In this document: piece by piece, positions 2,091 to 23,167 of the stretch
Layout: every line of letters starts with the position of its first letter
How positions within the stretch are numbered: the stretch's first letter is position 1
Assembly (NCBI RefSeq): GCF_001045435.1
Contig: NZ_LFNG01000009.1
Location: 1-64,000 of the forward strand
DNA: 64,000 nt
Direction of reading: 5' to 3'
DNA from: Chryseobacterium koreense CCUG 49689
Lineage (GTDB): Bacteria; Bacteroidota; Bacteroidia; Flavobacteriales; Weeksellaceae
Translations under genes and position numbers: made by a program
Notes under the pieces: generated by a model
Databases searched by the model: none
Told to the model about the DNA's origin: nothing
What the model saw: only the letters and a program-made list of their open reading frames with translations

Positions 2091-3056
2091 TTGTTTAATC
2101 TTGAAATAGGCAAAAAAGCCGTAGTTCTGATTGAACTAGATAAAACTTTGTTTGAACTATTTGATGTTTTTACGAAAGAAGAGTCTTTGCTGAATCTATG
2201 GTCTATTAAGACACAGGCAAAAATGAAAACTTTCAAAAAGCATTTGAAAACATTTGATGAAAATCTAAGTTTTAAATCCCTGGATGAAAACAAATTAATA
2301 AAATACCAATATTTTTTACAAGATGATCTAAAACTCCAAAACTCCACAGCCTTAAAAAATTTTTCGTTCCTCCGGTGGTTTTTAAGATGGGCGACTAAAA
2401 AAGGTTTTAATGAAAACAAAGCATTTGAACTTTTTAAACCGAAGCTCAAAACTATTCAGAAAAAGATAATTTTTCTTACTCAACCCGAGCTAAGTAAATT
2501 GAAGAATTTTGACATTCCAAAAGAGAAAAAATATTTAGAAAGGGTGAGAGATGTTTTTATGTTCCAATGTTTTACCGGTTTGAGATATTCGGATGTAGAA
2601 AATTTAAAACGAAGTGACATTAAAGATAATTCCATCGAAATAATAACAGTTAAAACTTCTGATAGTTTAATTATTGAACTTAATGATCACAGCAGAGCAA
2701 TACTTGAAAAATATAAAGATGAAGTATATGAAAAATCTAAAGCTTTGCCAGTGATTAGCAATCAAAAAATGAATGAATATTTACGGGAACTAACGGAATT
2801 GGCAGAAATTGATGAACCGATTCGCGAAACCTACTATAAAGGTAATCAGAAATTCGATGAAGTTTCCCCAAAATACGCGCTTATGAGCTCTCACGCCGGG
2901 AGACGAACTTTTATCTGCAACGCTTTGGCTTTAGGAATTCCACCGCAGGTCGTGATGAAGTGGACAGGTCACAGTGATTATTCTGCAATGAAGCCCTATA
3001 TTGATATTGCAGATCAAACTAAAATAAATGCGATGGCAAAGTTTAATATGCTGTAA
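2091..3056 (+). CDS. Tyrosine recombinase/integrase, 5'-truncated next to the IS21 end
   Basis: The catalytic domain is complete: R165 (TGLRYSD), K188, H268 and R271 (SHAGRRTF), H294 (WTGHSDYS) and nucleophile Y303 (MKPYIDI). A SAM-like core-binding domain spans about residues 38-105. Related Bacteroidota integrases are near 400 residues and begin with an arm-DNA-binding domain, which is missing here. The frame is open from 2055, just inside the IS border, and its first possible start is TTG at 2091; the first ATG is at 2223 (Met45). This is probably the integrase that brought in the adjacent metal island. Without the arm domain it is unlikely to work normally. Confidence 0.82.
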   Translation: MFNLEIGKKAVVLIELDKTLFELFDVFTKEESLLNLWSIKTQAKMKTFKKHLKTFDENLSFKSLDENKLIKYQYFLQDDLKLQNSTALKNFSFLRWFLRWATKKGFNENKAFELFKPKLKTIQKKIIFLTQPELSKLKNFDIPKEKKYLERVRDVFMFQCFTGLRYSDVENLKRSDIKDNSIEIITVKTSDSLIIELNDHSRAILEKYKDEVYEKSKALPVISNQKMNEYLRELTELAEIDEPIRETYYKGNQKFDEVSPKYALMSSHAGRRTFICNALALGIPPQVVMKWTGHSDYSAMKPYIDIADQTKINAMAKFNML

Positions 3057-3252
3057 TCTGATTTAATCTGATTTTGTTTCCGGTAGATAATTATGTGATC
3101 TGTGAGGTCTCTCTGTGGAATAACACTACAAGAACGTCTTTCGCGAAGCACATGATTAATAATAAATAATGGCTTACCAAAATACTTTTTCTAACTTATC
3201 ACCGCGAAAATTTTTGCAATGCAGTAAGGATTCAGAAGATGAAATTAAATTT

Positions 3253-3275
3253 AGCGGGCTGCGGTCCGCTTTTTC
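3253..3275 (+). terminator. Intrinsic terminator-like hairpin
   Basis: AGCGG and CCGCT arms enclose an 8-base GC-rich loop and are followed by TTTT. It lies between the integrase and the promoter of the copper operon and would insulate the two. Otherwise 3057-3309 shows no convincing gene. Confidence 0.5.
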
Positions 3276-3309
3276 ATCACAATCTTCAATTAAGTTAAAA
3301 ATAATTTCC

Positions 3310-3317
3310 TATATTTG
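3310..3317 (+). promoter_or_regulatory. -7 box of the copper operon (TATATTTG)
   Basis: TATATTTG matches the Bacteroidota TAnnTTTG -7 consensus and sits 17 bases before the ATG at 3335. The 13-base context TTTCCTATATTTG is identical to that upstream of the second metal module at 18342-18354. No clear -33 TTG is seen. Confidence 0.6.
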
Positions 3318-3334
3318 TACTGTTTTACTTTATA

Positions 3335-3751
3335 ATGCAAGGAAATTTAAAAACTTTATTGCTTTCCCTCACACTCGCGTTATTTCTGGCGCCGGGGATT
3401 TCCTTAGCCTGCAGTAAAAAGAACAAGCAGATTTTGAAATCAGAGGCTCATGCCGAAACTTTCATTAAACAGTCATTCGCGAAATTTCATCCGTCTTGCG
3501 ACAGCGGCGATTGCAAAGATGAGTGCTGTCACCCCCAATCTCACAATTGTCAAACGGAAGGATGCTCAGGAAACTGCAGCGGCAACCTTTGCAGTTCTGC
3601 TCAGTACACTGTTTTTGCGGACAATAAATTTTTAGAGGATTCTAAAAATGGAATGTCCGGTTACTATGACAAAAATTCTAATTTCTATTATCAGAATCCC
3701 CTGTACTCAGGTGGATTCCATACCATTTGGGAACCGCCCAAAATAGGTTAA
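3335..3751 (+). CDS. Small secreted Cys-rich protein leading the copper operon
   Basis: This 138-residue protein has an N-terminal hydrophobic signal (residues 8-25) ending near Cys26. A cysteine-dense core follows at about residues 53-85, with CDSGDCKDECC, CQTEGCSGNCSGNLC and nearby histidines. Its C-terminus reads FHTIWEPPKIG. The gene at 18359 encodes a shorter protein with the same plan: signal, Cys cluster, Phe/Tyr-rich segment and final IWQPPQLG. Small proteins of this type (I believe the DUF6660 family) occur beside RND metal pumps in Bacteroidota. A periplasmic metal-binding role is likely from the cysteines, but no biochemical function is established here. It is the first gene after the TATATTTG promoter. 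Confidence 0.7.
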   Translation: MQGNLKTLLLSLTLALFLAPGISLACSKKNKQILKSEAHAETFIKQSFAKFHPSCDSGDCKDECCHPQSHNCQTEGCSGNCSGNLCSSAQYTVFADNKFLEDSKNGMSGYYDKNSNFYYQNPLYSGGFHTIWEPPKIG

Positions 3752-3976
3752 TACCTTCTATTACATCCCGTATTATGTCCGGTCGTGAAGTGTTTTGGCA
3801 CTTTATCCCTGATTATTTAACGGCGCTGTATTTCCCTTCGAACTGCCACTTCTCCTTTAAGAGTAAATTTCACAAAAGAATTTTCTTTTTTGAGCAAGGA
3901 CACCTTGAAGATTAGGATCTTCGTAAGCAGTTTCTAAACACGGAGGCTCAAAAATTAACCTATAATCTAAAATTTA

Positions 3977-4363
3977 ATGAAGAATATTCTTTTGGGAATA
4001 CTCGCTTTTATAGCAGTATTCCTCGTTTCCTGCACCAATACAAAAGCAGAAAATACCCAAATTACCAATGCACAGTTTAAGACGGGCGACATTGTTCCCC
4101 ACGACCAGGTTTGTATGGTAAACAATGCCTACATGGGCAAAAAACAGCTCGAAGTAAAACATGATGGTAAGACGTATTACGGCTGCTGCGAAAACTGCAA
4201 GCTCAGAATCCCGCAGGAAGAAAACGCACGCATGGCCTACGATCCTATATCTCATCAACTCATCGATAAAGCAACCGCTATTATTGCAATCTCCGATAAG
4301 AATGATAACGTCGTGTACTTCGAAAATAAAGCAAACTACGAAGCCTTTTTCAATAAAAAATAA
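3977..4363 (+). CDS. Lipoprotein with YHS/TRASH-like metal-binding domain
   Basis: The 128-residue product starts with a lipoprotein signal (FLVSC, Cys19). The core VCMVNNAYMGKKQLEV followed by YYGCCENCKLRIP resembles the YHS/TRASH type of small metal-binding domain (MlpB-like in Bacteroidota), with Cys ligands at about residues 46, 71, 72 and 75. In copper clusters such proteins are thought to bind Cu in the periplasm. It follows the Cys-rich leader by 225 bases, a stretch with no convincing gene, and precedes the DUF3347 lipoprotein by 23 bases. The exact function is inferred from family and neighbours. Confidence 0.7.
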   Translation: MKNILLGILAFIAVFLVSCTNTKAENTQITNAQFKTGDIVPHDQVCMVNNAYMGKKQLEVKHDGKTYYGCCENCKLRIPQEENARMAYDPISHQLIDKATAIIAISDKNDNVVYFENKANYEAFFNKK

Positions 4364-4386
4364 ATAACCTTTAAACTTATAAAAAA

Positions 4387-5010
4387 ATGAAAACAGTATT
4401 ATTCAGCCTTTTGGCCATCGGCACATTTGCATTCACTTCTTGTAAAGAAAATAAAGAACAGAAAAGCACCACTGAAACATCCATGCAGCATGACATGAGC
4501 ACAATGTCCGACAGTGTAGCGATGGACAATATGCCTATGGACGCAAAGGTAACCGTAATCGACGCAAAAAAAACTTCCGCTGATCTTTCGGAACTTTTTT
4601 CCCATTACACCCACCTTACATTCGCTTTGTCCGGAGATGATGATAAAGAAGCGGTAAGTGCAGCAAAAGGGATCCTGGCCTCCTTTCCTAAAATAGAAAA
4701 GAGCGGGTTTTCCGCTGAACAGAAGAAAGAATTTGCTGACCTCGAATCAAGCATCCGGGAACACGCCGAGCACATTGCAGATAATGCCGGAAAAATTGAT
4801 CATCAGCGCGAACACCTGGACATAATGAGTGCAGATTTTTACGACCTACTGAAGGATTTCGGAACTCCAAAACCGGTGTACAAAATATTCTGCCCAATGT
4901 TTAATGACAACAAAGGAGCATTCTGGCTTAGCGATTCACGTGAGGTGAAGAATCCCTATTACGGCAAAGAAATGCTGTCGTGTGGCGAGGTTCAGGAAAA
5001 GATTAAGTGA
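4387..5010 (+). CDS. DUF3347 lipoprotein, putative periplasmic copper-binding protein
   Basis: The 207-residue product has a lipobox ending at Cys19 (TFAFTSC). A Met/His-rich stretch follows (about residues 33-53: MQHDMSTMSDSVAMDNMPM), then a helical DUF3347 domain. The domain includes EHLDIMSADFYDLLKDFG and the typical ending IFCPMFNDNKGAFWLS. DUF3347 domains are found in or beside CusB adaptors of Bacteroidota and are believed to hold copper or hand it to the efflux complex. It lies 14 bases before the pump gene and is surely co-transcribed with it. Confidence 0.85.
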   Translation: MKTVLFSLLAIGTFAFTSCKENKEQKSTTETSMQHDMSTMSDSVAMDNMPMDAKVTVIDAKKTSADLSELFSHYTHLTFALSGDDDKEAVSAAKGILASFPKIEKSGFSAEQKKEFADLESSIREHAEHIADNAGKIDHQREHLDIMSADFYDLLKDFGTPKPVYKIFCPMFNDNKGAFWLSDSREVKNPYYGKEMLSCGEVQEKIK

Positions 5011-5024
5011 AAACATACTGAACC

Positions 5025-6308
5025 ATGATTCAAAATTTAATTAAACTGTCCCTCCGCAACAGGTATTTCGTTTTGCTAATTGCAACCGGCCTTTTTATCT
5101 GGGGTATTTTTGCGGTAAGGGACAATCCCATCGATGCGATCCCCGATCTGAGTGAGAATCAGGTCATCGTTTTTACAGAATGGATGGGCAGAAGCCCCCA
5201 GATTATTGAAGATCAGGTTACTTTCCCACTGGTCAGCAACCTTCAGGGCATTCCTAAAATTAAGAACATCCGGGCTTCTTCCATGTTTGGGATGAGTTTC
5301 GTATATGTCATTTTCGAAGATAATGTGGACATCTATTGGGCCAGAACGCGGGTAATGGAACGGCTCAACTATGCCCAGCGTTTACTCCCGCAAGACGTTA
5401 CGCCTACTCTCGGACCGGATGGCACCGGTGTAGGTCACGTCTTCTGGTACCATTTCGATGCACCCAAAATGGATTTGGGAGACCAGCGCGCCCTCCAGGA
5501 CTGGTATGTAAAGTTTGCGCTTCAGACGGTTCCCGGTGTGGCGGAAGTGGCCTCCTTTGGCGGTTTCGAAAAACAGTATCAACTCATTGTAGATCCAGTA
5601 AAACTGCAATACTATAACGTCTCCCTGATGGATGTGATGAACAAAGTGAAAGCCAACAATAATGATGTGGGCGGACGTAAATTTGAGATGGCCGATATGG
5701 CCTACATCATTCGCGGTCTGGGTTACATCAAGAACGTAGCCGATATCGAAGAAATTGCTTTGGGAAATTACAACGGTATTCCCGTGCGGGTCAAAGATAT
5801 TGGCTCTGTACAGATGGGTGGTGATCTGCGTCTGGGTATTTTTGATGCAGACGGTGAAGGCGAAGTCGTGGGCGGTATCGTGGTGGCACGGTATGGCGAA
5901 AATGCGGATAAGGTCATCAACGATGTGAAAGAGAAAATGAAGGATGTAGAAAAAGGCCTGCCCGAAGGCGTCACTTTCAAAACATCGTACGACCGCAGTA
6001 CTCTGATTGAAGGGGCAATCGACAATATTAAAACCAAGCTGATCGAAGAGATCATCGTGGTCGCCATCATTGTTATTCTGTTCCTCTTTCACTGGCGAAG
6101 TGCATTCAGTATCATTATTCAGATTCCGGTCACCATTGCCATCAGCTTTATTCTGCTCAATGCGTTTGGACTTTCATCCAATATCATGTCGCTTACCGGA
6201 ATTGCACTGGCAATCGGGGTGATCGTAGATAACGGAATTATCATGTCTGAAAATGCGTATAAAAATCTCTCCGATTGGCAGAACCATCATCAAAATAAAA
6301 ACCCATAA
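5025..6308 (+). CDS. cusA: CusA-type RND metal pump, N-terminal half (split gene)
   Basis: These 427 residues correspond to the first half of a CusA/CzcA inner-membrane RND pump, which exports Cu(I)/Ag(I) using proton influx. Visible are TM1 (residues 14-30), the porter subdomains and TM2-TM4. TM4 carries the expected acidic residue (GVIVDNGIIM, D near 402). The protein stops at NLSDWQNHHQNKNP, in the cytosolic loop before TM5. The next gene starts two bases later and supplies TM5-TM12, so together the two make one full-length pump of about 1,080 residues. A run of five A at 6297-6301 lies just before the stop; one extra A would join the frames. Whether this is a frameshift, sequencing error or working gene fission cannot be told from the sequence. 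Confidence 0.9.
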   Translation: MIQNLIKLSLRNRYFVLLIATGLFIWGIFAVRDNPIDAIPDLSENQVIVFTEWMGRSPQIIEDQVTFPLVSNLQGIPKIKNIRASSMFGMSFVYVIFEDNVDIYWARTRVMERLNYAQRLLPQDVTPTLGPDGTGVGHVFWYHFDAPKMDLGDQRALQDWYVKFALQTVPGVAEVASFGGFEKQYQLIVDPVKLQYYNVSLMDVMNKVKANNNDVGGRKFEMADMAYIIRGLGYIKNVADIEEIALGNYNGIPVRVKDIGSVQMGGDLRLGIFDADGEGEVVGGIVVARYGENADKVINDVKEKMKDVEKGLPEGVTFKTSYDRSTLIEGAIDNIKTKLIEEIIVVAIIVILFLFHWRSAFSIIIQIPVTIAISFILLNAFGLSSNIMSLTGIALAIGVIVDNGIIMSENAYKNLSDWQNHHQNKNP

Positions 6309-6310
6309 CA

Positions 6311-8281
6311 ATGAAAACCAACTGGTTAAAAAATATATTCAGAAAGAAAGATAAGGAGAAAGACAGTTACGTTAAAATTCCCGAAGACATTCGGATGAAG
6401 ATTATCGAAAAATCATCCTTACAGGTATCCAGAGGCGTATTTTTTTCTACGGTGATTATCGTGGTTTCTTTTCTCCCCGTATTTATGTTGACAGGTCAGG
6501 AAGGTAAACTTTTTCACCCCCTGGCGTTTACCAAAACCTTTATCCTGATCGTTGATGCAATCCTGGTGCTTACCCTTGCACCGGTGCTGATCTCCTTTTT
6601 TATGAAGGGTAAATTTAAGGACGATAATAAAAACCCAATAAACAGGGGCCTGGAGCGGGTGTACGAACCCATCATTCGCTGGTGCATGGAATGGAAAAAA
6701 ACGACCCTCGGAATCAATATTCTTGCCCTTCTCATCAGCATCCCTTTAATTATGAACCTCGGCCGTGAGTTTATGCCGCCCTTAGATGAAGGATCTTTGC
6801 TCTTTATGCCGGTCACTTTGCCTGATATTTCCAACTCCGAAGCTAAAAGATTACTGCAGGTACAGGATAAAATCATTAAAGGAGTCCCCGAAGTGGATCA
6901 TGTCCTCGGAAAAGCAGGAAGAGCCAACACAGCGACAGATAATTCACCCATTTCAATGATTGAAACCATTATTTTGTTGAAGCCTCAGGACGAATGGCGC
7001 GACGGCCTTACAAAAGATGATCTTATTAATGAATTGAATGCCAAACTGCAGATTCCGGGCGTAACTAATGGCTGGACTATGCCGATTTCCAACCGGATCA
7101 ATATGCTTTCCACAGGGATTAGAACTGACGTTGGGGTGAAGGTGTATGGACAGAATCTGGATAGTATCGCGGTCCTTTCCGAAAAAATAAAAAAGGAACT
7201 CACCGGTATTGAAGGAATAAAAGACATGTACGTAGAACCGATTACCGGCGGAAAATATGTGGATATTGAAGTGAAACGCGAAGAAATAGGAAGATACGGC
7301 CTAAGTGTGGATGACGTAAATGCCGTGGTGGAAAGTGCCCTCGGCGGAATGAAACTCACCACCACCGTGGAAGGCCGACAGCGCTTTTCGGTAAACGCCA
7401 GATACGGCCAGGATTTCAGAAATAATTTGGAATCTCTGAGAAGACTCCCAATGCAAACGATGGAATTTGGTTCCATCCCCCTGAGTGCAGTGGCCGACGT
7501 TCGCCTGACTGAAGGTCCTCCAATGATCAATTCGGAAAACGCAATGTTGCGCGGAACCGTTCTGTTCAACGTGCGTGACCGGGATTTGGGCAGCACCGTA
7601 GAAGAAGCACAGAAAAAACTCAACAGCATGGTCACCAAAATGCCCAAAGGCTATTTCGTGGAATGGAGCGGCCAGTATGAAAACCTGATTCGCGGCGAGC
7701 AGACCTTAAAGATGATTATGCCCCTCGTATTAATCGTGATCTTTCTTTCCATGTACTTTGCATTCAATTCTTACCGTGAAGCTTTCTTTAATCTCATCAG
7801 TATTCCTTTTGCCTTAATCGGCGGTGTCTTTATGATTTCGATTTGGGGCGTCAATCTCTCTGTAGCTGTAGCAGTCGGCTTTATTGCACTGTTCGGACTT
7901 GCGGTAGAAACCGGAATTGTGATGGTCATTTACCTGAACGATGCCATGATTCAGCTTATTGCCAAAAATGGAAACTCACGGGAGACCATTACCAATGAAG
8001 AACTTCGTGAATATGTAATCAATGGTGCAGCCAAAAGATTAAGACCTAAAATTATGACCGTGTGTGTCACCCTCTTCGGACTTGTACCCATCCTTTGGAG
8101 CCACGGCGTGGGAAGTGATATGATGAAACCAATCGTATTACCCATGGTCGGTGGCGTTTTTACTTCGGCAATTCACATCCTTTTGGTAACACCTGTTATC
8201 TTTTATATGCAGAAAAGAGTGGGAACTGAACAAACTGGGGAAAATCGACGTGCTCGACGCTTCCCATTAATCCTTAAATGA
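6311..8281 (+). CDS. cusA: CusA-type RND metal pump, C-terminal half (split gene)
   Basis: This 656-residue protein starts with a basic segment (NWLKNIFRKKDKEKDSY) and then the normal CusA region beginning at TM5 (VFFSTVIIVVSFLPVFML). It includes the second large periplasmic porter domain (LGREFMPPLDEGSLLFMP) and TM8-TM12 (from IMPLVLIVIFLSMYF). The -1 frame is open back to 6299, within the coding region of the first half, so a single-base change in the A5 run restores one continuous pump. As it stands, TAACAATG places stop and start two bases apart, which would favour coupled translation. No residue of the family's usual core appears to be missing across the junction. Confidence 0.9.
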   Translation: MKTNWLKNIFRKKDKEKDSYVKIPEDIRMKIIEKSSLQVSRGVFFSTVIIVVSFLPVFMLTGQEGKLFHPLAFTKTFILIVDAILVLTLAPVLISFFMKGKFKDDNKNPINRGLERVYEPIIRWCMEWKKTTLGINILALLISIPLIMNLGREFMPPLDEGSLLFMPVTLPDISNSEAKRLLQVQDKIIKGVPEVDHVLGKAGRANTATDNSPISMIETIILLKPQDEWRDGLTKDDLINELNAKLQIPGVTNGWTMPISNRINMLSTGIRTDVGVKVYGQNLDSIAVLSEKIKKELTGIEGIKDMYVEPITGGKYVDIEVKREEIGRYGLSVDDVNAVVESALGGMKLTTTVEGRQRFSVNARYGQDFRNNLESLRRLPMQTMEFGSIPLSAVADVRLTEGPPMINSENAMLRGTVLFNVRDRDLGSTVEEAQKKLNSMVTKMPKGYFVEWSGQYENLIRGEQTLKMIMPLVLIVIFLSMYFAFNSYREAFFNLISIPFALIGGVFMISIWGVNLSVAVAVGFIALFGLAVETGIVMVIYLNDAMIQLIAKNGNSRETITNEELREYVINGAAKRLRPKIMTVCVTLFGLVPILWSHGVGSDMMKPIVLPMVGGVFTSAIHILLVTPVIFYMQKRVGTEQTGENRRARRFPLILK

Positions 8282-8288
8282 TTACAAA

Positions 8289-9536
8289 ATGAAAAAATTC
8301 ATAATAACAGCAGTACTTGCTTTGCTTTGCACCACCAGTTATGCTCAGCGGATGCCGTTGCCGGCTGTAATGGACAGTATTGCAGCCAACAATCCTGTGG
8401 TTAAAATGTATAATGCGGAAGTCCGGTCAATGGACGCTGCAGCCAAAGGCGCAAGAAACTGGATGCCACCAACCGTTGGAGCCGGGTTGTTTATGACACC
8501 TTATAATCCACAACTCTGGCAACGCGATGGCGACATGCTCGGCATGGGTTCCGTAGCAGTTTCTGTGGAGCAGATGTTTCCCAACAGAAGGAAACTTGAT
8601 GCCAACGAAAATCTGATGAAGGCAATGTCTTCTGTAGAAAAGGAAAAACTCTATGCCAACCTCAATGAAAACTTTCAGGATGCGAAAAAACTATATTACA
8701 GTTCAATCGTCCTGGATAAAAAGCTGAAGGTCGTAAAGGAAAACGAAAAGATGCTGGATTTCATGATCAGAAACGCCGAGATCCGGTACAAAAACGGACT
8801 CGGTAAAATATCAGCCTATTACAAAGCGAAAGCTGCGCTTGGCAGTTCCAAAAACATGCAGCTCATGTACGAGAACGACCTTAGGGTGAACCGGATTCGT
8901 CTAAATGCCCTCATGGGAAGAGACGCGCTCGCACCGCTGGAGATTGAACCGGAATACAACCTGAATGACTATTCTCTCGATACTTTTGGTCAGGATCTCT
9001 TTTATCAGAACAGAAGTGATCTTCGCGGCATTGATAAGGAAATTAATATTGCCAAACTGAAACAGGATCTGGAAAAACAGAATCTAAAGCCGGAATACGG
9101 AGTGAAGTTCGAAAACATGTTCGGTTTCGGCGGCCAACCCATGCAGTTTTCCCTTATGCTGATGGCAAAGCTGCCTTTCGTGTCCTGGGCTTCAGGCATG
9201 AGTAAAGCCAATATTGAAAGCCTGAAACTGAAAGAAGAAGCCTTGCAGGCACAGAAAGAAATGATGGTAAACGAATACAGTGGAATGGCCTACGGAATGC
9301 GCAATGAACTGGATCTGAATAAAAATCAGCTCAAACTCTATGAAGACACCATCATTCCGGCCTTAAAAAACAACTACAAATCCATGCAGTTGGGCTACGA
9401 GCAGAATACGGAAGAACTCTTCATGTTGTATGATGCCTGGGAACAGCTGAATATGACCCAGTTGGAATATTTCGATATCCTTACCAAAGCACTGCAGACG
9501 CAAACTGAAATTGACCGCTTAATTGAAAGAAGATGA
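8289..9536 (+). CDS. cusC: TolC-type outer membrane efflux protein (CusC-like)
   Basis: The 415-residue product has a cleavable signal (residues 1-19, ending SYAQ) and two outer-membrane-efflux repeats rich in long amphipathic helices. Examples are LPAVMDSIAANNPVVKMY near the start and YEDTIIPALKNNYKSMQLGY near the end. It would form the trimeric exit duct of the copper RND system. It begins 7 bases after the pump and overlaps the next adaptor gene by four bases (ATGA), so the pump-channel-adaptor order is a tight operon. The length is normal for Bacteroidota CusC proteins. Confidence 0.9.
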   Translation: MKKFIITAVLALLCTTSYAQRMPLPAVMDSIAANNPVVKMYNAEVRSMDAAAKGARNWMPPTVGAGLFMTPYNPQLWQRDGDMLGMGSVAVSVEQMFPNRRKLDANENLMKAMSSVEKEKLYANLNENFQDAKKLYYSSIVLDKKLKVVKENEKMLDFMIRNAEIRYKNGLGKISAYYKAKAALGSSKNMQLMYENDLRVNRIRLNALMGRDALAPLEIEPEYNLNDYSLDTFGQDLFYQNRSDLRGIDKEINIAKLKQDLEKQNLKPEYGVKFENMFGFGGQPMQFSLMLMAKLPFVSWASGMSKANIESLKLKEEALQAQKEMMVNEYSGMAYGMRNELDLNKNQLKLYEDTIIPALKNNYKSMQLGYEQNTEELFMLYDAWEQLNMTQLEYFDILTKALQTQTEIDRLIERR

Positions 9537-10783
9537 GAAAGCTAATAATGTACACCATGCTTTTGTTGGCTTTAACGGCCTGTGATAAAGTGAAGTTCTG
9601 GGAAGATAAGCACACAGCAGAGGCGGCAATGCACACCTACACTTGTCCGATGCATCCGGAAATAATCTCAGACAAACCCGGTCAGTGTCCCAAATGCGGT
9701 ATGGATCTGGTCCTGAAAGATGCTCCTGCTAAAAAGGAAGAAGGGATTAAACTCGACGATTTGCTGAAACCCACCAATGAATTTGTCGTCTCGGAATTGC
9801 CGGTCGTAAATTTAAAAAAGGAAAATATTCCCACCACCGTTGATGCTTTAGGGACGGTGGAATACGACACGCGGCAGATTGGCAGTATTTCGTCCCGCGT
9901 AGCTGGAAGGATCGAAAAACTCTATGTGCGGTACAAATACCAGAAAGTGTCCAAAGGGCAGCGTATTTTAGATATATACAGCCCGGAACTGTTAACCGCG
10001 CAGCAAAACCTGCTCTTTGTTCTGAAAAATGACCGCTCAAACAAAACAATGATCGATGCCTCACGGCAGAAACTACTTCTTTTGGGAATGCCTGCTTCAC
10101 AGATTCAGAAAGTTATCCAGAGAGGAAAACCTGATCTCACAATTCCGGTTTTCAGCAATTACAGCGGACATATTCAGCAAGCAGGAGCGGCAGGAAGCAT
10201 GGGACCCGCACAGCAACCCGCACCGGAAATGGAGGCTACCAGTGCGGTGACCGCTGAATTACCGCTGAAGGAAGGAATGTACCTGCAGAAAGGACAGAAT
10301 ATTTTCAGTGTCTATAATCCCAACAGAACCTGGGCCCTGATCAATATTTTTTCTGAAGATATTGGCTTGGTCAGCAAAGGACAGTCTGTAATGGTCATTC
10401 CGGAATCCAATCCGAACAGCCGCTTCAAAGGAACCATAGGTTTTATTGAACCCTTTTTCAGGCAGGGCAGCAAAACCGTAACGGCGCGCGTCTATTTTGA
10501 TAATTCCACCGCAAAAATTCCTGTTGGAAGTCAGGTTAAAACGGAGATTATGAGCCACAATAGAATGGCAGACTGGCTTCCGAAATCAGCGGTGGTTTCA
10601 TTGGGCATTGATAAAATCGCGTTCAAAAAAGTAGAGGGCGGTTTTATTGCCCATAAAGTTGTTACTGGCGCTGTGGTAGGGGATAAAATTCAGATCATAA
10701 GTGGTTTGCTTCCTGAAGATGGTGTTGCGGAAAACGCACAGTACCTTATGGACAGCGAAAGTTTCATAAAAATTAACAGATAA
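9533..10783 (+). CDS. cusB: RND periplasmic adaptor (CusB-like) with heavy-metal-binding domain
   Basis: This is a 416-residue lipoprotein (Cys17, LLALTAC). A heavy-metal-binding domain (HMBD) lies at about residues 36-63: [20 protein letters not shown] then GMDL. A CusB/HlyD fold follows, with the barrel-sandwich segment SRVAGRIEKLYVRYKY and a membrane-proximal C-terminal domain. Adaptors link the RND pump to the TolC channel, and CusB also receives Cu(I)/Ag(I) from periplasmic donors. It is the first of two adaptors in this operon, and its start overlaps the end of cusC. A Gln/Ala/Pro-rich insertion (about residues 222-242) interrupts the lipoyl region. Confidence 0.88.
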   Translation: MRKLIMYTMLLLALTACDKVKFWEDKHTAEAAMHTYTCPMHPEIISDKPGQCPKCGMDLVLKDAPAKKEEGIKLDDLLKPTNEFVVSELPVVNLKKENIPTTVDALGTVEYDTRQIGSISSRVAGRIEKLYVRYKYQKVSKGQRILDIYSPELLTAQQNLLFVLKNDRSNKTMIDASRQKLLLLGMPASQIQKVIQRGKPDLTIPVFSNYSGHIQQAGAAGSMGPAQQPAPEMEATSAVTAELPLKEGMYLQKGQNIFSVYNPNRTWALINIFSEDIGLVSKGQSVMVIPESNPNSRFKGTIGFIEPFFRQGSKTVTARVYFDNSTAKIPVGSQVKTEIMSHNRMADWLPKSAVVSLGIDKIAFKKVEGGFIAHKVVTGAVVGDKIQIISGLLPEDGVAENAQYLMDSESFIKINR

Positions 10784-10794
10784 AAATTGATAAG

Positions 10795-12000
10795 ATGAAA
10801 TTCAATATTTTAATGTTGGCCTTGCTGGTTTTTCTTTACTCCTGTAAAAAGGAAGAAGATCCTCATGCGGGTCACGATATCTATTACACCTGTTCCATGC
10901 ACCCACAGGTGGTATCTGACAAACCGGGAAAATGTCCCATTTGTCACATGGATTTGGTACCGGTGGAGAAGAAAAAGAACGCGGATCCCAATGAACTCAT
11001 CCTGAATGACGAACAGATTAAATTAGGAAATATAAAGACACTCGCGCTTTCTGACGGTTCCATGGCCGATAAACTCACGCTTACCGGAACACTCAATTTT
11101 AACCAGTACCAGATGCAGGCGGTCAGTTCCAGAGTAATGGGCAGAGTTGAACGTTTGTATTATAAAAACATTGGCGATTTTGTTCCGAAGGGGGCGCCGC
11201 TGGTCGATATTTACAGTGAAGAACTCAACAATGCAAAGCAGGAATATCTGCTGGCACTGGAAAGACGAAAACTTTTCGTCGGCAATACATCCATTGATTT
11301 CGATCAGTTGCTCCAAAGTTCCCGTAACAAGCTTTATTTATGGGGAATGTCGGAAAACCAGATCAAACAATTGGAAAAATCAGGAAAAGCTACGCCTACC
11401 ACTACCGTGTTCAGCAATGCAGCCGGGTACATCACCGATCTCAGCATTGCCGAAGGCGATTATCTTGCCGAAGGTGGCACCATCGTGAATCTGGCAGATC
11501 TTTCATCGCTGTGGGCGGAGGCGCAGGTTTATTCTTCTCAAATGTCACTCCTTCAGAAAGACAGCAAAGTCACGGTGTATATACCGGATATGGATAATTT
11601 GAAGATTAATGGGAAGATCGATTTTACAAACCCTGAAATAAGCGCCTCCAGCAGGATAAATCTGGTTCGCATTTCCGTGCCCAACAAAGGAAACCTGCTG
11701 AAACCCGGAATGCCGGTATATGTTCTGGTGGAAAACAAATCCCGCGATGGTCTTTCAATGCCTGTGGATGCGGTAATCAGGGATGGTAAATCCTCCACGG
11801 TCTGGGTGAAAACCGCGAAGAATACCTTCGTAAACAGAATGGTGGAAACGGGTCTGGAATATGAAGACAGAATTGAAATCACCTCTGGAATTAAAGCAGG
11901 TGACGAAGTAGTGGTTTCGGGGGCCTACCTGCTAAACAGTGAATACATATTCAAGAAAGGAGTCGATCCAATGGCGGGTCACGATATGAGCACCATGTAA
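10795..12000 (+). CDS. Second RND periplasmic adaptor with heavy-metal-binding domain
   Basis: This 401-residue lipoprotein (Cys17, FLYSC) has an HMBD at about residues 31-58. In it the usual CPMHP is CSMHP and the second half is CPICHMDL. The rest is a CusB-type adaptor: SRVMGRVERLYYKNIGDFVP, a helical hairpin, a lipoyl half-motif and a beta-barrel. It is clearly related to the preceding adaptor but diverged, which suggests an old duplication and possibly a hetero-oligomeric adaptor ring. The C-terminus ends in a short Met/His tail (DPMAGHDMSTM). The next gene follows after one base. Confidence 0.87.
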   Translation: MKFNILMLALLVFLYSCKKEEDPHAGHDIYYTCSMHPQVVSDKPGKCPICHMDLVPVEKKKNADPNELILNDEQIKLGNIKTLALSDGSMADKLTLTGTLNFNQYQMQAVSSRVMGRVERLYYKNIGDFVPKGAPLVDIYSEELNNAKQEYLLALERRKLFVGNTSIDFDQLLQSSRNKLYLWGMSENQIKQLEKSGKATPTTTVFSNAAGYITDLSIAEGDYLAEGGTIVNLADLSSLWAEAQVYSSQMSLLQKDSKVTVYIPDMDNLKINGKIDFTNPEISASSRINLVRISVPNKGNLLKPGMPVYVLVENKSRDGLSMPVDAVIRDGKSSTVWVKTAKNTFVNRMVETGLEYEDRIEITSGIKAGDEVVVSGAYLLNSEYIFKKGVDPMAGHDMSTM

Positions 12001-12001
12001 T

Positions 12002-12454
12002 ATGAGAAAATTGAATATCATAGGTTGGCTGTCGGTGATCGTGGTGGCGGTTGTATTAGCCATTCACTTCATACCGGTGGAGCGTAATGTCTCCACCGTT
12101 CCGGCAGGTCAAAGTTTTGAAAGAACCGAAAAGGTGCCCGCCAACGTGGCTGCAATACTTAAAGTTTCGTGTTATGACTGTCATTCCAATAACACCCGCT
12201 ATCCGTGGTATTCGGAATTGCAGCCAGGAGCATCGTTTATGGCTCAGCATATTAAAGAAGGCAAAGAAGAACTCAATTTTGATGAGTTCAATGATTATTC
12301 AAAAAGACGTAAAAAAGCGAAAATAAAAAGCATCATCAGCCAGATTGAAAAAGACGAAATGCCCTTGAAATCGTACCGCATGATGCACGGAGGTTTCAAC
12401 TTATCAACAAAGGACAAAAAGGAGCTGCTCGATTTTTTTAATAAACTTAACTAA
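12002..12454 (+). CDS. Membrane-anchored haem-binding-domain protein
   Basis: The 150-residue product has one N-terminal membrane helix (residues 6-23). It also has the haem-binding domain signature CYDCHSNNTRYPWYS at about residues 57-71, which includes a c-type CxxCH motif. A C-terminal MMHGGFNLSTKDK region is typical of the family. The domain is annotated as haem-binding from its CxxCH motif; its role in copper clusters is unknown, though electron transfer to or from the multicopper oxidase is one possibility. It starts one base after the second adaptor, so it belongs to the same operon. Confidence 0.8.
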   Translation: MRKLNIIGWLSVIVVAVVLAIHFIPVERNVSTVPAGQSFERTEKVPANVAAILKVSCYDCHSNNTRYPWYSELQPGASFMAQHIKEGKEELNFDEFNDYSKRRKKAKIKSIISQIEKDEMPLKSYRMMHGGFNLSTKDKKELLDFFNKLN

Positions 12455-12472
12455 CTTTTAAAAACGCAAAAT

Positions 12473-13036
12473 ATGGAAAATTCACAACACAGCCACAAAG
12501 TTTCTCGGAACCATGACGCCTCGGGGGAAACTCATTCTACACAGAATACGGATTCAAAAAAAGAAGATGGGCAAATGGGTCATAGCGGCGCATACAAAAA
12601 ACTTTTTTGGATGCTTCTGATTTCCTTTGTATCGATGTTTATTTTAATGTATGCGATGGTCGATCGGTTAGCCAACGTAATTCCCAATATCAATCAGTTT
12701 TATATGGCCGGGCTCATGGCTTCTCCTATGTTGATCATCGAACTGCTGTTAATGGGAAAGATGTATCCCAATAAAAAATTCAACAAAGTCCTGATAGGTG
12801 TCGGTGTGTTGTCGATGGTGCTGTTTTGGTCTGGCATTCGGCAGCAGACCGCCGTTGGAGATATGCAGTTCTTAAAGTCAATGATCCCGCATCACGCCGG
12901 TGCAATCTTGATGGTTGAAGAAAGTAATTTAGTTGATCCGGAAGTCAGAAAATTGGGCGAGGAAATTATCAAAGCACAGGAGGAAGAAATTGCTGTCATG
13001 AGGGCGAAAATTAAGGAACTTCAAACCCGGAAGTAA
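12473..13036 (+). CDS. DUF305 membrane protein with His-rich N-terminus
   Basis: In this 187-residue protein the N-terminal 40 residues are hydrophilic and contain several His. Three predicted membrane helices (about residues 43-65, 76-97 and 103-120) come next. A C-terminal DUF305 motif then gives MIPHHAGAILMVEES and a helical tail. DUF305 domains are ferritin-like helical modules common in copper-resistance clusters, with the HH pair a probable metal site. The gene lies 18 bases after the haem-binding protein and 37 bases before the ATPase. Its precise function is not known. Confidence 0.8.
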   Translation: MENSQHSHKVSRNHDASGETHSTQNTDSKKEDGQMGHSGAYKKLFWMLLISFVSMFILMYAMVDRLANVIPNINQFYMAGLMASPMLIIELLLMGKMYPNKKFNKVLIGVGVLSMVLFWSGIRQQTAVGDMQFLKSMIPHHAGAILMVEESNLVDPEVRKLGEEIIKAQEEEIAVMRAKIKELQTRK

Positions 13037-18769: not shown

Positions 18770-21700
18770 ATGCTAAATAACATTATTGAATTTTCTATCA
18801 AGAATAAGCTGGTGGTGGGAATATTCACCATAGCTTTAATTATATGGGGCGTTATGTCCCTTCGAACTCTTCCTATAGATGCCGTCCCGGATATTACAAA
18901 TAATCAGGTGCAGGTCATAACATTAAGTCCATCATTGGCAACCCAAGAAATAGAACAGTTCATCTCTTACCCTATTGAACAAACTATGTCCACTATTCCT
19001 GAAATTCAGGAAGTGCGGTCTATCTCTCGTTTTGGTTTATCTGTTGTAACCATTATTTTTCATGACGACATAGATATTTACTGGGCTCGTCAACAAGTTT
19101 CAGAACGGCTTCCCGAAGCCAAAAGTTCTATTCCTGCTGGTCTTGGCAATCCTGAAATGGCGCCAGTTTCTACTGGTTTAGGCGAAATTTACCAATATAC
19201 CGTACATGCTAAACCAGGTTTTGAGGATAAATATGATGCTACAAAATTGCGTACAATTCAGGATTGGATTATTAGAAAACAACTTTTGGGCACACCGGGA
19301 ATTGCCGAAGTAAATAGTTTTGGTGGTTTCCTAAAGCAATATGAAATAGCCTTAAATATAAATCAATTAAGGAGTTACAACTTATCTATATCTGATGTTT
19401 TCACAGCGCTTGAAAAAAATAATCAGAATACCGGCGGATCATATATTGATAAAAAACCAAATGCCTATTTTATTAGAAGCGAAGGTTTAATTACAAGTCT
19501 TGCCGATATCGAACGGATTGTGGTCAAAAATTCTGAAAATGGTTTACCTATTACCATTAGAGATGTCGCAAAAGTTCAGTTTGGAACTGCAACACGCTAC
19601 GGCGCACTTACCCGAAACGACAAGGAAGCTGTGGGAGGAATAGTTTTGTTGTTGAAAGGGAGCAATGCTTCTGAAGTAGTGGGAAGAGTAAAGGAAAAAA
19701 TTGACCAAATACGGAAAACTTTACCCGAAGGTGTTGAAATAGAACCCTTTTTAGATAGAAGTGAATTTGTGGATAGGGCTATGAGTACTGTTCAAAAGAA
19801 TTTAGTAGAAGGTGCTTTAATCGTAATATTAGTCCTTGTTCTTTTCCTTGGTAATATTCGATCAGGCTTAATTGTGGCTTCCGTAATACCTTTAGCAATG
19901 CTCTTTGCGGTCTCCATGATGAAAGTTTTTGGCGTATCTGGAAACTTAATGAGTCTTGGAGCCATAGATTTTGGATTGATTGTGGACGGAGCAGTGATTA
20001 TTGTGGAAGCAACCATGCATCAGTTAGCAAGGCAAAAAGCAGGAAAAATTTCGCAGGCAGAAATGGATACACAGGTTTCAGGTTCTGCCAAGAAAATGAT
20101 GAACTCGGCAGCATTCGGTCAATTAATTATTCTAATTGTTTATTTGCCAATATTAGCTTTGGTAGGAATTGAAGGCAAAATGTTCCGCCCGATGGCACAA
20201 ACAGTTTCCTTCGCAATATTTGGAGCATTGATTCTTTCGCTTACTTACGTTCCGATGATCAGTTCACTTTTATTAAGTAAAAATATTACTCATAAAAAGA
20301 ACTTCTCTGATAAAATGATGGATAAATTTCAGCGCGCTTATAATCCTTTAATTAATGGTGCGCTTCGATTTAAGAAGGCTGTTCTCATTATTGCAATTGC
20401 ACTACTAGGAGTGTCGGTAGTCATTTTTAATTCTCTAGGAGGTGAGTTTTTGCCAACATTGGAAGAAGGTGATTTTGCAGTGGAAACAAGATTGCTTGTG
20501 GGAAGTTCCTTGGATCAAACTGTAGAAAAAATAGAACAGGCATCCAGTTTATTAATGAAAACTTATCCGGAAGTAAAAGAAGTGGTGGGAAAAATTGGCG
20601 CATCTGAAATCCCTACAGATCCAATGCCGATAGAGGCTACAGATATTACTATTTTATTAAAACCTAAAAATGAATGGACTAGTGCAGATACACGCGAAGA
20701 ATTAGCGGAGAAAATGCAGAAAACTTTAGAGCAGGTTCCGGGTGTAACTTTCGGTTTTTCTCAACCCATACAACTGCGAACCAACGAATTAATTTCTGGA
20801 GTAAGACAAGATGTGGGAATCAAGATTTTTGGTGATGATTTAGAAACACTTTCAGATTTAGCAAAGAAAATCGGTGCGCTAATCCCATCAATTGATGGTG
20901 CGGAAGATTTGTATATAGAACAGGTAAGTGGTTTGCCGCAAATTTCCATAAAATTGAACAGAGATAATATTGCGCGATATGGATTTAATGTTGAAGAAAT
21001 AAATAACGCGATAAATACCGCATTTGCTGGTGGTATTGCAGGTACTGTTTTCGAAGGTGAAAAACGTTTTGATCTCGTTGTAAGATTAGAACATGACGAA
21101 AGACAAAGTATAGAAGATGTAAAAAGACTTTTTGTAACATCCAGCACTGGAAATCAAGTTCCTTTGGAGCAGCTCGCAGACATCAGTTATCAACTTGCAC
21201 CTAACCAAATACAACGTGAAGATGCCAAAAGACGAATTATTGTTGGCTTCAATGTTAGGGGCAAAGATATCGCCTCGGTAGTAAAAGATGTTCAGGCGAA
21301 GATTGACCAAAAAATAAAAATGCCGACTGGATATTTTATAACCTACGGTGGTCAATTTAAAAATCTTGAAGAAGCCAATAAAAGATTGTCAATTGCTGTA
21401 CCTGTCGCGTTGGGCTTAATTCTCTTACTACTCTATTTCGCATTTGGCTCTATAAAGTATTCTTTATTAATTTTTACCGCAATACCAATGTCAGCCATAG
21501 GCGGAATATTTGCCCTTTGGTTAAGAGGTTTACCTTTTAGTATTTCTGCGGGTGTAGGTTTCATCGCTTTATTTGGTGTCGCAGTTTTAAATGGAATCGT
21601 TTTAATAACGGAATTCAATCAACTTAAAAAACAAGGTATGAAAGATGTAAAACAGAGAATTCTGGCAGGAACAGCTATAAGATTGAGACCTGTTTTAATG

Positions 21701-23167
21701 ACAGCTACAGTTGCTTCATTAGGGTTTTTACCAATGGCACTCGCAACTGGAGCAGGAGGAGAAGTGCAGAAACCATTGGCAACAGTTGTTATTGGCGGAT
21801 TAATTACTGCAACTTTTCTAACATTGGTGCTTTTACCAGTGCTTTACGCATACGCTGAGAATATAAAACCTTCTGGGTGGAAAAGGAAAAAATCAAAAAT
21901 TGTGGGCACAACAACTGTAATTCTCTTATTTCTTTTTTCGGGATTAAATAATGGAGTAAAAGGACAAGTCATTACGAATTCATCTGCATCTTTAAATATA
22001 ATTGATTTGAATTCTGCAGTTACCGCCTCAATAGGATCCAATCCAAATACCAGAATTGCTCGATTGGGTGAAGAATACCAATCTGCATTAAAAGGATCGG
22101 TCAGAGATTATGGCAAAACCAACATTAACCTAACTTTTGGACAGTACAATAGTCTTATTGCTTACGATAATAATATTACCATTAGCCAAAACATTCCGAA
22201 TCCGATTTATTTGAAAAGATTGACAGAGCTTGCAGATGCTAATATAAATGCATCGCGAATGCAGGCAGGTATCTATAAAAATCAGATTACGTATCAGGTA
22301 AAAAGTATATACTACAGTTTACTTTACAGAAAAGAGCAGAAAAAGCTGAATGAAGATTTAATTACGCTCTATGAGAAAATACTTCGTGCTGCAGATATAA
22401 GATTTAGAACTGGAGAAACTAATATTTTAGAAAAATACAATGCGAACACTAGATTGCAGGAAGCAATTTCTCAAAAATTGCAGACTGAAGAATATATAAA
22501 AATTCATTTGGAGCAATTGAAAAGATATACCGCAAACCAAACCATCGAAGATATCGCGGATAATACTCTTACCGAAAAGTTTTTAGATCTTTCTGCAGAT
22601 GGAAAAATGTTTAATAAAAATCCAGACTTGCTTGCTTTGAAGAGCCAAATAGAAGTTGCTAAAGAAGAAATAAGGGTTGAAAAAAGTAAACTGCTGCCAG
22701 ATTTTAGTGTGGGTTATTTTAATCAATCTTTAGTGGGTAATTTTGAGAAAAATGGGGTCTCGAAGTTTTATGGAGTTGGTAAAAGATTTCAAGGTGTAGA
22801 ACTGGGAATAAGCATACCTATTTTTGCAAAGGCGCAGAAGGCAAAAATAAAAGCCGCCGAAATTCATCAGGAGTTGCAGGAAGCACAGGTAGATGCATTT
22901 TCTTTCAGTCTTTCCCAGCGAGGTTCTACATTGCTTTCTGATCTAAAACGATTGCAAATACAGATTGACTTTTACCGAGAAACAGCATTGCCACAAGCAA
23001 AGTTGCTCATTTCCAAATCACAGCGCGCCTTTGAGGTGGGTGAAATGGACTATTATCAAGTGAGTCAATCCATTAATAATGCAGTAGAAGTTCAAAAACA
23101 GTACATCGAAAGTTTAAATCAATACAATCAAATAGCCATAGAATTAGAATTAATTTCTGGTTTATAA
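18770..23167 (+). CDS. czcA: CzcA-type RND metal pump fused to a TolC-type channel
   Basis: This 1,465-residue protein joins two parts. Residues 1 to about 1,040 are a complete CzcA/CusA RND pump: TM1 at 13-30, DIYWARQQV in the porter, the acidic TM4 motif FGLIVDGAVIIVEA near 404 and GGEFLPTLEEGDFAVETRL in the second half. Residues about 1,042-1,065 form a hydrophobic segment like a signal peptide. About 1,070-1,465 are an outer-membrane-efflux domain with TolC-like helices (ITISQNIPNPIYLKRL, YRETALPQAKLLISKSQRAF). Such fusions are known in Bacteroidota. The acidic TM4 and Zn-type neighbours (ZIP, Fur family, CPC ATPase) suggest Zn/Cd/Co export. The DNA is clearly more AT-rich than module 1. 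Confidence 0.92.
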   Translation: MLNNIIEFSIKNKLVVGIFTIALIIWGVMSLRTLPIDAVPDITNNQVQVITLSPSLATQEIEQFISYPIEQTMSTIPEIQEVRSISRFGLSVVTIIFHDDIDIYWARQQVSERLPEAKSSIPAGLGNPEMAPVSTGLGEIYQYTVHAKPGFEDKYDATKLRTIQDWIIRKQLLGTPGIAEVNSFGGFLKQYEIALNINQLRSYNLSISDVFTALEKNNQNTGGSYIDKKPNAYFIRSEGLITSLADIERIVVKNSENGLPITIRDVAKVQFGTATRYGALTRNDKEAVGGIVLLLKGSNASEVVGRVKEKIDQIRKTLPEGVEIEPFLDRSEFVDRAMSTVQKNLVEGALIVILVLVLFLGNIRSGLIVASVIPLAMLFAVSMMKVFGVSGNLMSLGAIDFGLIVDGAVIIVEATMHQLARQKAGKISQAEMDTQVSGSAKKMMNSAAFGQLIILIVYLPILALVGIEGKMFRPMAQTVSFAIFGALILSLTYVPMISSLLLSKNITHKKNFSDKMMDKFQRAYNPLINGALRFKKAVLIIAIALLGVSVVIFNSLGGEFLPTLEEGDFAVETRLLVGSSLDQTVEKIEQASSLLMKTYPEVKEVVGKIGASEIPTDPMPIEATDITILLKPKNEWTSADTREELAEKMQKTLEQVPGVTFGFSQPIQLRTNELISGVRQDVGIKIFGDDLETLSDLAKKIGALIPSIDGAEDLYIEQVSGLPQISIKLNRDNIARYGFNVEEINNAINTAFAGGIAGTVFEGEKRFDLVVRLEHDERQSIEDVKRLFVTSSTGNQVPLEQLADISYQLAPNQIQREDAKRRIIVGFNVRGKDIASVVKDVQAKIDQKIKMPTGYFITYGGQFKNLEEANKRLSIAVPVALGLILLLLYFAFGSIKYSLLIFTAIPMSAIGGIFALWLRGLPFSISAGVGFIALFGVAVLNGIVLITEFNQLKKQGMKDVKQRILAGTAIRLRPVLMTATVASLGFLPMALATGAGGEVQKPLATVVIGGLITATFLTLVLLPVLYAYAENIKPSGWKRKKSKIVGTTTVILLFLFSGLNNGVKGQVITNSSASLNIIDLNSAVTASIGSNPNTRIARLGEEYQSALKGSVRDYGKTNINLTFGQYNSLIAYDNNITISQNIPNPIYLKRLTELADANINASRMQAGIYKNQITYQVKSIYYSLLYRKEQKKLNEDLITLYEKILRAADIRFRTGETNILEKYNANTRLQEAISQKLQTEEYIKIHLEQLKRYTANQTIEDIADNTLTEKFLDLSADGKMFNKNPDLLALKSQIEVAKEEIRVEKSKLLPDFSVGYFNQSLVGNFEKNGVSKFYGVGKRFQGVELGISIPIFAKAQKAKIKAAEIHQELQEAQVDAFSFSLSQRGSTLLSDLKRLQIQIDFYRETALPQAKLLISKSQRAFEVGEMDYYQVSQSINNAVEVQKQYIESLNQYNQIAIELELISGL

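Follow-up and report, generated by a model that had tools for sequence, protein, structure and literature searches.

The copper exporter CusA of Escherichia coli is made as one chain of 1047 residues, and RND permeases of this kind are treated as single polypeptides, with length filters that remove halves. A protein of the RND superfamily that occurs in both forms, fused as SecDF and as two genes, is provided by SecD and SecF, which separate at the boundary of the six-plus-six helix repeat. Two permease genes per pump are also found in MdtBC, a heteromeric RND permease whose subunits MdtB and MdtC are described, in the part of the paper available to us, as homologues that arose by gene duplication (PMC7015380). 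For CusA itself, the accessible text of PMC8092243 places D405, M391 and M410 on TM4, and the metal-site residues M573, M623 and M672 together with E625 are named there and in the corresponding part of PMC11213822.

In a search of the open-access literature, mostly outside the subscription journals, no paper came up that describes an RND permease in split form. One survey, which covered the RND permeases of 920 genomes, required alignments of more than 80% and discarded matches shorter than 852 aa, six sequences in all, filters that, as far as the available text describes them, would drop halves like those reported here (PMC10872679). In the available text on the copper genes of Bizionia argentinensis, which belongs to the same phylum as our organism, four CusA-like proteins are described, one of which is reported to carry R83 and the Met triad together (PMC11213822); this would mean a continuous chain in that species and counts against the two-chain reading given below. 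A study of czcA in Chryseobacterium, going by its accessible part, amplified part of a gene and has no bearing on the split (PMC6532875).

The window analysed here, 64,000 nucleotides of Chryseobacterium koreense CCUG 49689 (contig NZ_LFNG01000009.1), carries two adjacent open reading frames on the plus strand, 5025-6308 (427 aa) and 6311-8281 (656 aa). When aligned with E. coli CusA (PDB 3K07 and other chain sequences), the product of the first covered residues 8-433 and that of the second residues 439-1043, so that a few loop residues at most are missing. Coverage of the HME-RND profile TIGR00914 was likewise full-length and co-linear over both chains, at positions 1-430 and 425-1039 of 1051, and the Pfam ACR_tran model was matched at 2-419 and 420-1019 of 1021. 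Neither half passes the TIGR00914 cut-off of 701.45 bits alone, the scores being 473.7 for the N half and 620.6 for the C half; a fused relative discussed below (L075) scored 1091.6 bits. By topology transferred from CusA, the N half holds TM1, the first periplasmic domain, TM2-TM4 and a short cytosolic tail, and the C half opens with a cytosolic extension containing K and W residues, followed by TM5-TM12 and the second periplasmic domain. Judged from these alignments, the two frames together encode, in register, a single RND permease of the CusA type, with the break in the predicted cytosolic TM4-TM5 loop, as the first-pass annotation had proposed. Its description of the junction (6306-6313) also held: the TAA stop at 6306-6308 is followed by CA and then, at 6311, by an ATG; upstream of this start no stop interrupts the second frame as far as 6299, the nearest being a TAA at 6296-6298; and a run of five A is present at 6297-6301. 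Unlike MdtBC, which consists of two full-length paralogues, each gene here covers a different part of one permease profile, and unlike SecD and SecF, the pump is cut four-plus-eight, inside the first repeat.

The likeness to CusA extends to individual residues. Counterparts of R83, D405, M391 and M410 lie on the N chain, and those of the metal site M573, M623 and M672 with E625, as well as E939, K984 and M1009, lie on the C chain. The proton-relay positions D405, E939 and K984 are D, E and K in the window, and both the M391-M1009 pair and M410 are kept. Apart from being two chains cut at TM4-TM5, the pump departs from CusA at M403, M486 and M501, positions mostly not occupied by Met in the split pumps and by I, L and I in the window. 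If the pump works as CusA does, its proton relay must form between two polypeptides, since D405 is on one chain and E939 and K984 are on the other.

The genes around the pump, all on the plus strand, supply partners of the OEP and CusB types, as for CusA. An outer-membrane factor of the CusC/TolC type (8289-9536, PF02321) probably shares an operon with the pump halves and is followed by two CusB-type periplasmic adaptors, each with an N-end heavy-metal-binding domain, at 9533-10783 (PF16576, PF19335, PF16572) and 10795-12000 (PF16576, PF19335). A DUF3347 protein (4387-5010, PF11827) is encoded 5' of the pump. When 81 loci, including four fused ones, were examined, an OEP gene was found directly 3' of the permease in all 76 that had at least 1.5 kb of flank, the other five having too short a flank; matches to OEP and CusB-type proteins were present in 69/69 loci with 4 kb of flank, where both adaptor queries may match one gene.

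The same genome holds a second split copy on another contig, cut at the same place with the same 2-base gap, its N half being 84% identical to that of the window. The C-half terminal residues of the window (8213-8281), which begin near an A run at 8213-8216, are out of frame relative to all 11 sequences compared, the second copy included; this tail may be a single-strain indel or assembly error, unlike the split itself. Six further pumps of the CusA/CzcA group, which belong to the HME-RND family as well, exceeded the TIGR00914 cut-off (contigs C4, C9, C12, C13 twice and C15). Unlike the split pair, these have continuous frames, of 1035-1469 aa, and they are 33-38% identical to the N half. Within the window, the frame at 18770-23167 encodes 1465 aa, with the RND profile over about the first 1030 residues and some 430 further residues that look like an outer-membrane factor by eye. 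A broken RND gene of the CusA/CzcA family lies on contig C6 (L010, 2117-4176), where profile positions 2-399 and 747-1044 are matched and the middle, about 347 positions, is gone.

Relatives of the C half were collected by scanning one genome per species, and the best 80 of 107 loci were kept. Among these 80, two contigs lack the N half (L040 and L041) and two more start within it. The N half of L111 and of L113 lay outside the flank first examined. The pump was split in 74 and fused in four of the 78 loci that had both parts. The four fused relatives are 68-73% identical to the window in either half. Our whole-genome searches for split pumps covered the window's own phylum, where a scan of 395 genomes gave matches at an E-value of 1e-180 or better in 64. 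With the top three candidates per genome scored and the classes counted by hand from the resulting listing, split pumps accounted for 30 matches in 24 genomes, our own included (open frames of 643-728 aa), and fused pumps for 40 matches in 40 genomes (1031-1100 aa); in that listing every split match had at least 53% identity and every fused match at most 55%.

Split pumps also occur on plasmids. A megablast of the gene pair against plasmid sequences gave no match; a protein search did, with 12 of 3225 records at 60-80% identity and the other 3213 all below 60%. Five of the 12 were opened and are Bacteroidota by taxonomy, and the remainder are presumably Bacteroidota too, going by their names. 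Three records below 60% were also opened, of which those from Pelobacter and Comamonadaceae were fused and that from Hymenobacter radiodurans was split, with its C half itself broken. Of the six split plasmid records opened, five are annotated with two permease coding sequences: RefSeq gives two genes for an 'efflux RND transporter permease subunit' on the Runella, Haliscomenobacter, Mucilaginibacter and Hymenobacter radiodurans plasmids, and a Fibrella plasmid has two permease genes in its GenBank record as well, so both frames are already in databases. The sixth, a Pontibacter plasmid (L123), has two intact open reading frames with no gene annotated over either. These cases serve as a warning that annotation of metal resistance may take split copies for broken genes.

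Since many relatives also encode two genes, an old inherited split is most likely, rather than a sequencing error. We consider it very probable that the locus holds two real genes for one CusA-type permease, created by an ancient fission in the TM4-TM5 loop in a Bacteroidota lineage, since inherited or spread horizontally, and that their products form a two-chain protomer. The history of the split was followed in two trees, the first built from 50 loci and two outgroup rows after near-duplicates had been removed at 93%, the second a maximum-likelihood tree of 46 hand-chosen pumps (34 split, four fused and eight fused outgroup rows) with the junction columns excluded. Long-branch warnings were raised for L115 and L006 among others in the first tree and for L129, L142 and L146 in the second, where L142 and L147 were also flagged for odd letter composition. 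In the 46-row tree the 34 split and four fused rows formed one clade (bootstrap 100, SH-aLRT 100) apart from the eight fused outgroup rows, and the four fused rows formed a clade of their own (98/95) nested deep among the split rows. Two state changes were needed on this tree, and none of 200 bootstrap trees managed with one; trees from the N columns only and from the C columns only needed two each as well. Forcing all split rows into a single clade was rejected (p-AU 7e-5), a pattern already visible in the first tree. With the outgroup taken into account, the tree fits a single old fission and a single later re-fusion. The first-pass annotation had held that relatives with an identical continuous frame would make the break an artefact or a mutation of one strain; the four relatives with a continuous frame do exist, but their nested position makes them look re-fused.

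It could instead be argued that the pump broke repeatedly and independently at the same loop and that the four nested fused pumps were never split. Repeated breaks are conceivable in a loop of such variable length, and subclades differ in junction type; support is weak for two inner branches close to the fused clade (63/53 and 63/70), and the number of fissions needed is therefore uncertain. Without re-fusion, however, the 46-row tree demands ten fissions as against one fission and one re-fusion, and a topology that unites all split rows in one clade is rejected. In the four fused pumps, moreover, the linker appears to resemble the N-half tail of split neighbours run into a C-half head minus its charged extension. 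Thus we regard repeated fission as unlikely, and a single gene fission followed by apparent re-fusion as the case presented by these pumps.

The layout of the junction was compared over 97 split loci, a set that includes near copies (more than 20 near-identical) and from which 11 rows had been dropped before counting (the own-genome CzcA rows, L010, L124, L099, L033 and L034). The second gene stood in frame relation 0, 1 or 2 to the first in 6, 28 and 63 loci respectively. Taking the gap from the stop of the first gene to the nearest ATG, a measure biased toward small gaps, we found 2 bases in 28 of the 97, mainly close relatives, an overlap of 4 bases in 21 and spacers of 59-359 bp in 12. Six spacers were tested for inverted repeats, which were found in four, from one Nubsella, two Pedobacter and one Hymenobacter (L060 4747-4994, L069 4636-4994, L073 4765-4994 and L090 4878-4985), and not in those of L058 and L130. 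Stop-to-stop frames in the long spacers, the 620-bp one of L130 apart, reached 83 codons, and none was gene-like by eye. A permuted operon occurs in two genomes from other families, in the order C half, OEP, adaptor, adaptor, N half, placing the two halves at opposite ends with three other genes between them. Given the three frame relations, the long spacers and the permuted operons, the halves are independent genes.

These layouts bear directly on the suggestion, also made in the first-pass annotation, that a ribosome crosses the junction by a programmed -1 frameshift and so makes a full-length pump. Most close relatives do conserve the layout of the junction and the A run, and in them a minor frameshift product could still be made. 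As an account of the gene pair at large, however, a programmed frameshift is very unlikely, the frame relation being inconstant (6/28/63), spacers of 59-359 bp occurring in 12 of the 97 loci and the halves lying three genes apart in two genomes. A programmed -1 frameshift gene is marked by a conserved slip site and one frame relation throughout, a combination absent from these loci.

Were the pair a decaying, disused pseudogene, its halves should show relaxed selection and loss of essential parts, and neither was found. Eight pairs in all were compared for dN/dS; three of them, saturated in both halves, yielded no value. In the comparisons with four close relatives the ratio was 0.007-0.015 in the N half and 0.05-0.12 in the C half, and against the genome's own second copy 0.04 (N) and 0.03 (C), with dS near saturation. 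Both halves are under purifying selection. Counterparts of R83, D405, M410, E567, M573, D617, M623, E625, R669, M672, E939 and M1009 are kept in 34/34 split rows, M391 in 33 and K984 in 32, so that metal-site and relay residues are retained across deep branches; M573, M623 and M672 with E625 are also kept in all 12 fused rows. Arginine replaces K678 throughout the 34 split rows, where Met is found at M403 in none, at M486 in six and at M501 in one. The intact but unannotated frames of the Pontibacter plasmid could reflect a pseudogene call by the pipeline, and the window's C half has its out-of-frame tail. Against this stand dN/dS values well below 1 on both halves, the retained key residues, the adjoining OEP gene in every locus with enough flank, and the different look of L010, a truly broken RND gene of the same genome, and decay is thus extremely improbable. 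Two deep split paralogues, L127a and L128, carry L at the position of K984, and some split copies may therefore work differently from CusA.

A recent indel in this strain or a homopolymer sequencing error in a naturally continuous gene, which the small offset between the frames and the five A at 6297-6301 had brought to mind, has a negligible probability, as the same split is found in the genome's second copy, in the 74 of 78 loci from independent assemblies (among the best 80 of 107) and in L023, a close relative with a shorter A run, besides the other frames, long spacers and permuted operons described above.

If the two genes do encode one protomer, the cut in the cytosolic TM4-TM5 loop, made anciently in a Bacteroidota lineage, would leave the N chain ending and the C chain starting in the cytosol, by the topology carried over from CusA; with both of these ends cytosolic, neither chain would need an odd topology for separate insertion. 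Coupled translation could keep the chains in step, given the close spacing or overlap of the genes in most loci. Once inserted separately, the two chains would come together in the membrane as one protomer like that of CusA, packing as TM4 does against its neighbours in CusA before trimerising; three chain pairs (3+3) would give the trimer typical of these pumps, which would dock to the OEP and CusB products of the neighbouring genes. The proton relay would cross the chain boundary, with D405 on one side and both E939 and K984 on the other. Production of both chains, their 3+3 association, assembly and transport are what the gene pair leads us to expect. AlphaFold models of the separate halves, from 29-row alignments, were poor (mean pLDDT 49 and 65). 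The C-chain extension, with the consensus W-K-I-F-K, is present in many subclades and absent in others, for example L079, L100, L129 and L139, and is therefore not essential.

A broader reading, towards which we lean with only modest assurance, is that in one entire clade of Bacteroidota Cus pumps the protomers are obligately two-chain (3+3), with a subunit boundary that lies within the first six-helix repeat and is spanned by relay and metal channel, that one lineage has re-fused, and that the halves are permutable operon parts. Were a conserved natural split to lie within the first helix repeat of a working pump, the permease would be shown to tolerate assembly from two pieces that are made separately, and such a pump would lend itself to studies of the coupling between the proton-relay helix TM4 and the remainder.

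The surroundings of the pump hint at exchange. A segment of about 9.1 kb (window 3298-12391) recurs at 88.7-91.2% DNA identity in 20 of 26 loci compared, and its ends are similar in most of them; in three loci it extends to about 13.2 kb, and a Pelobium locus spans 4858-12008. Its carriers are, by their titles, mostly Chryseobacterium, Kaistella or Epilithonimonas. Together with the frame at 2091-3056, which is integrase-like by eye, the shared segment suggests horizontal spread. Recombination between the two half genes is hinted at by the comparison of the window with L031, in which synonymous divergence reaches 0.59 for the N half but 0.12 for the C half. In L127 two split pumps lie less than 10 kb apart, at 2845-6055 and 9177-12615, the first being 61% (N) and 54% (C) identical to the window halves and the second 77% and 73%.
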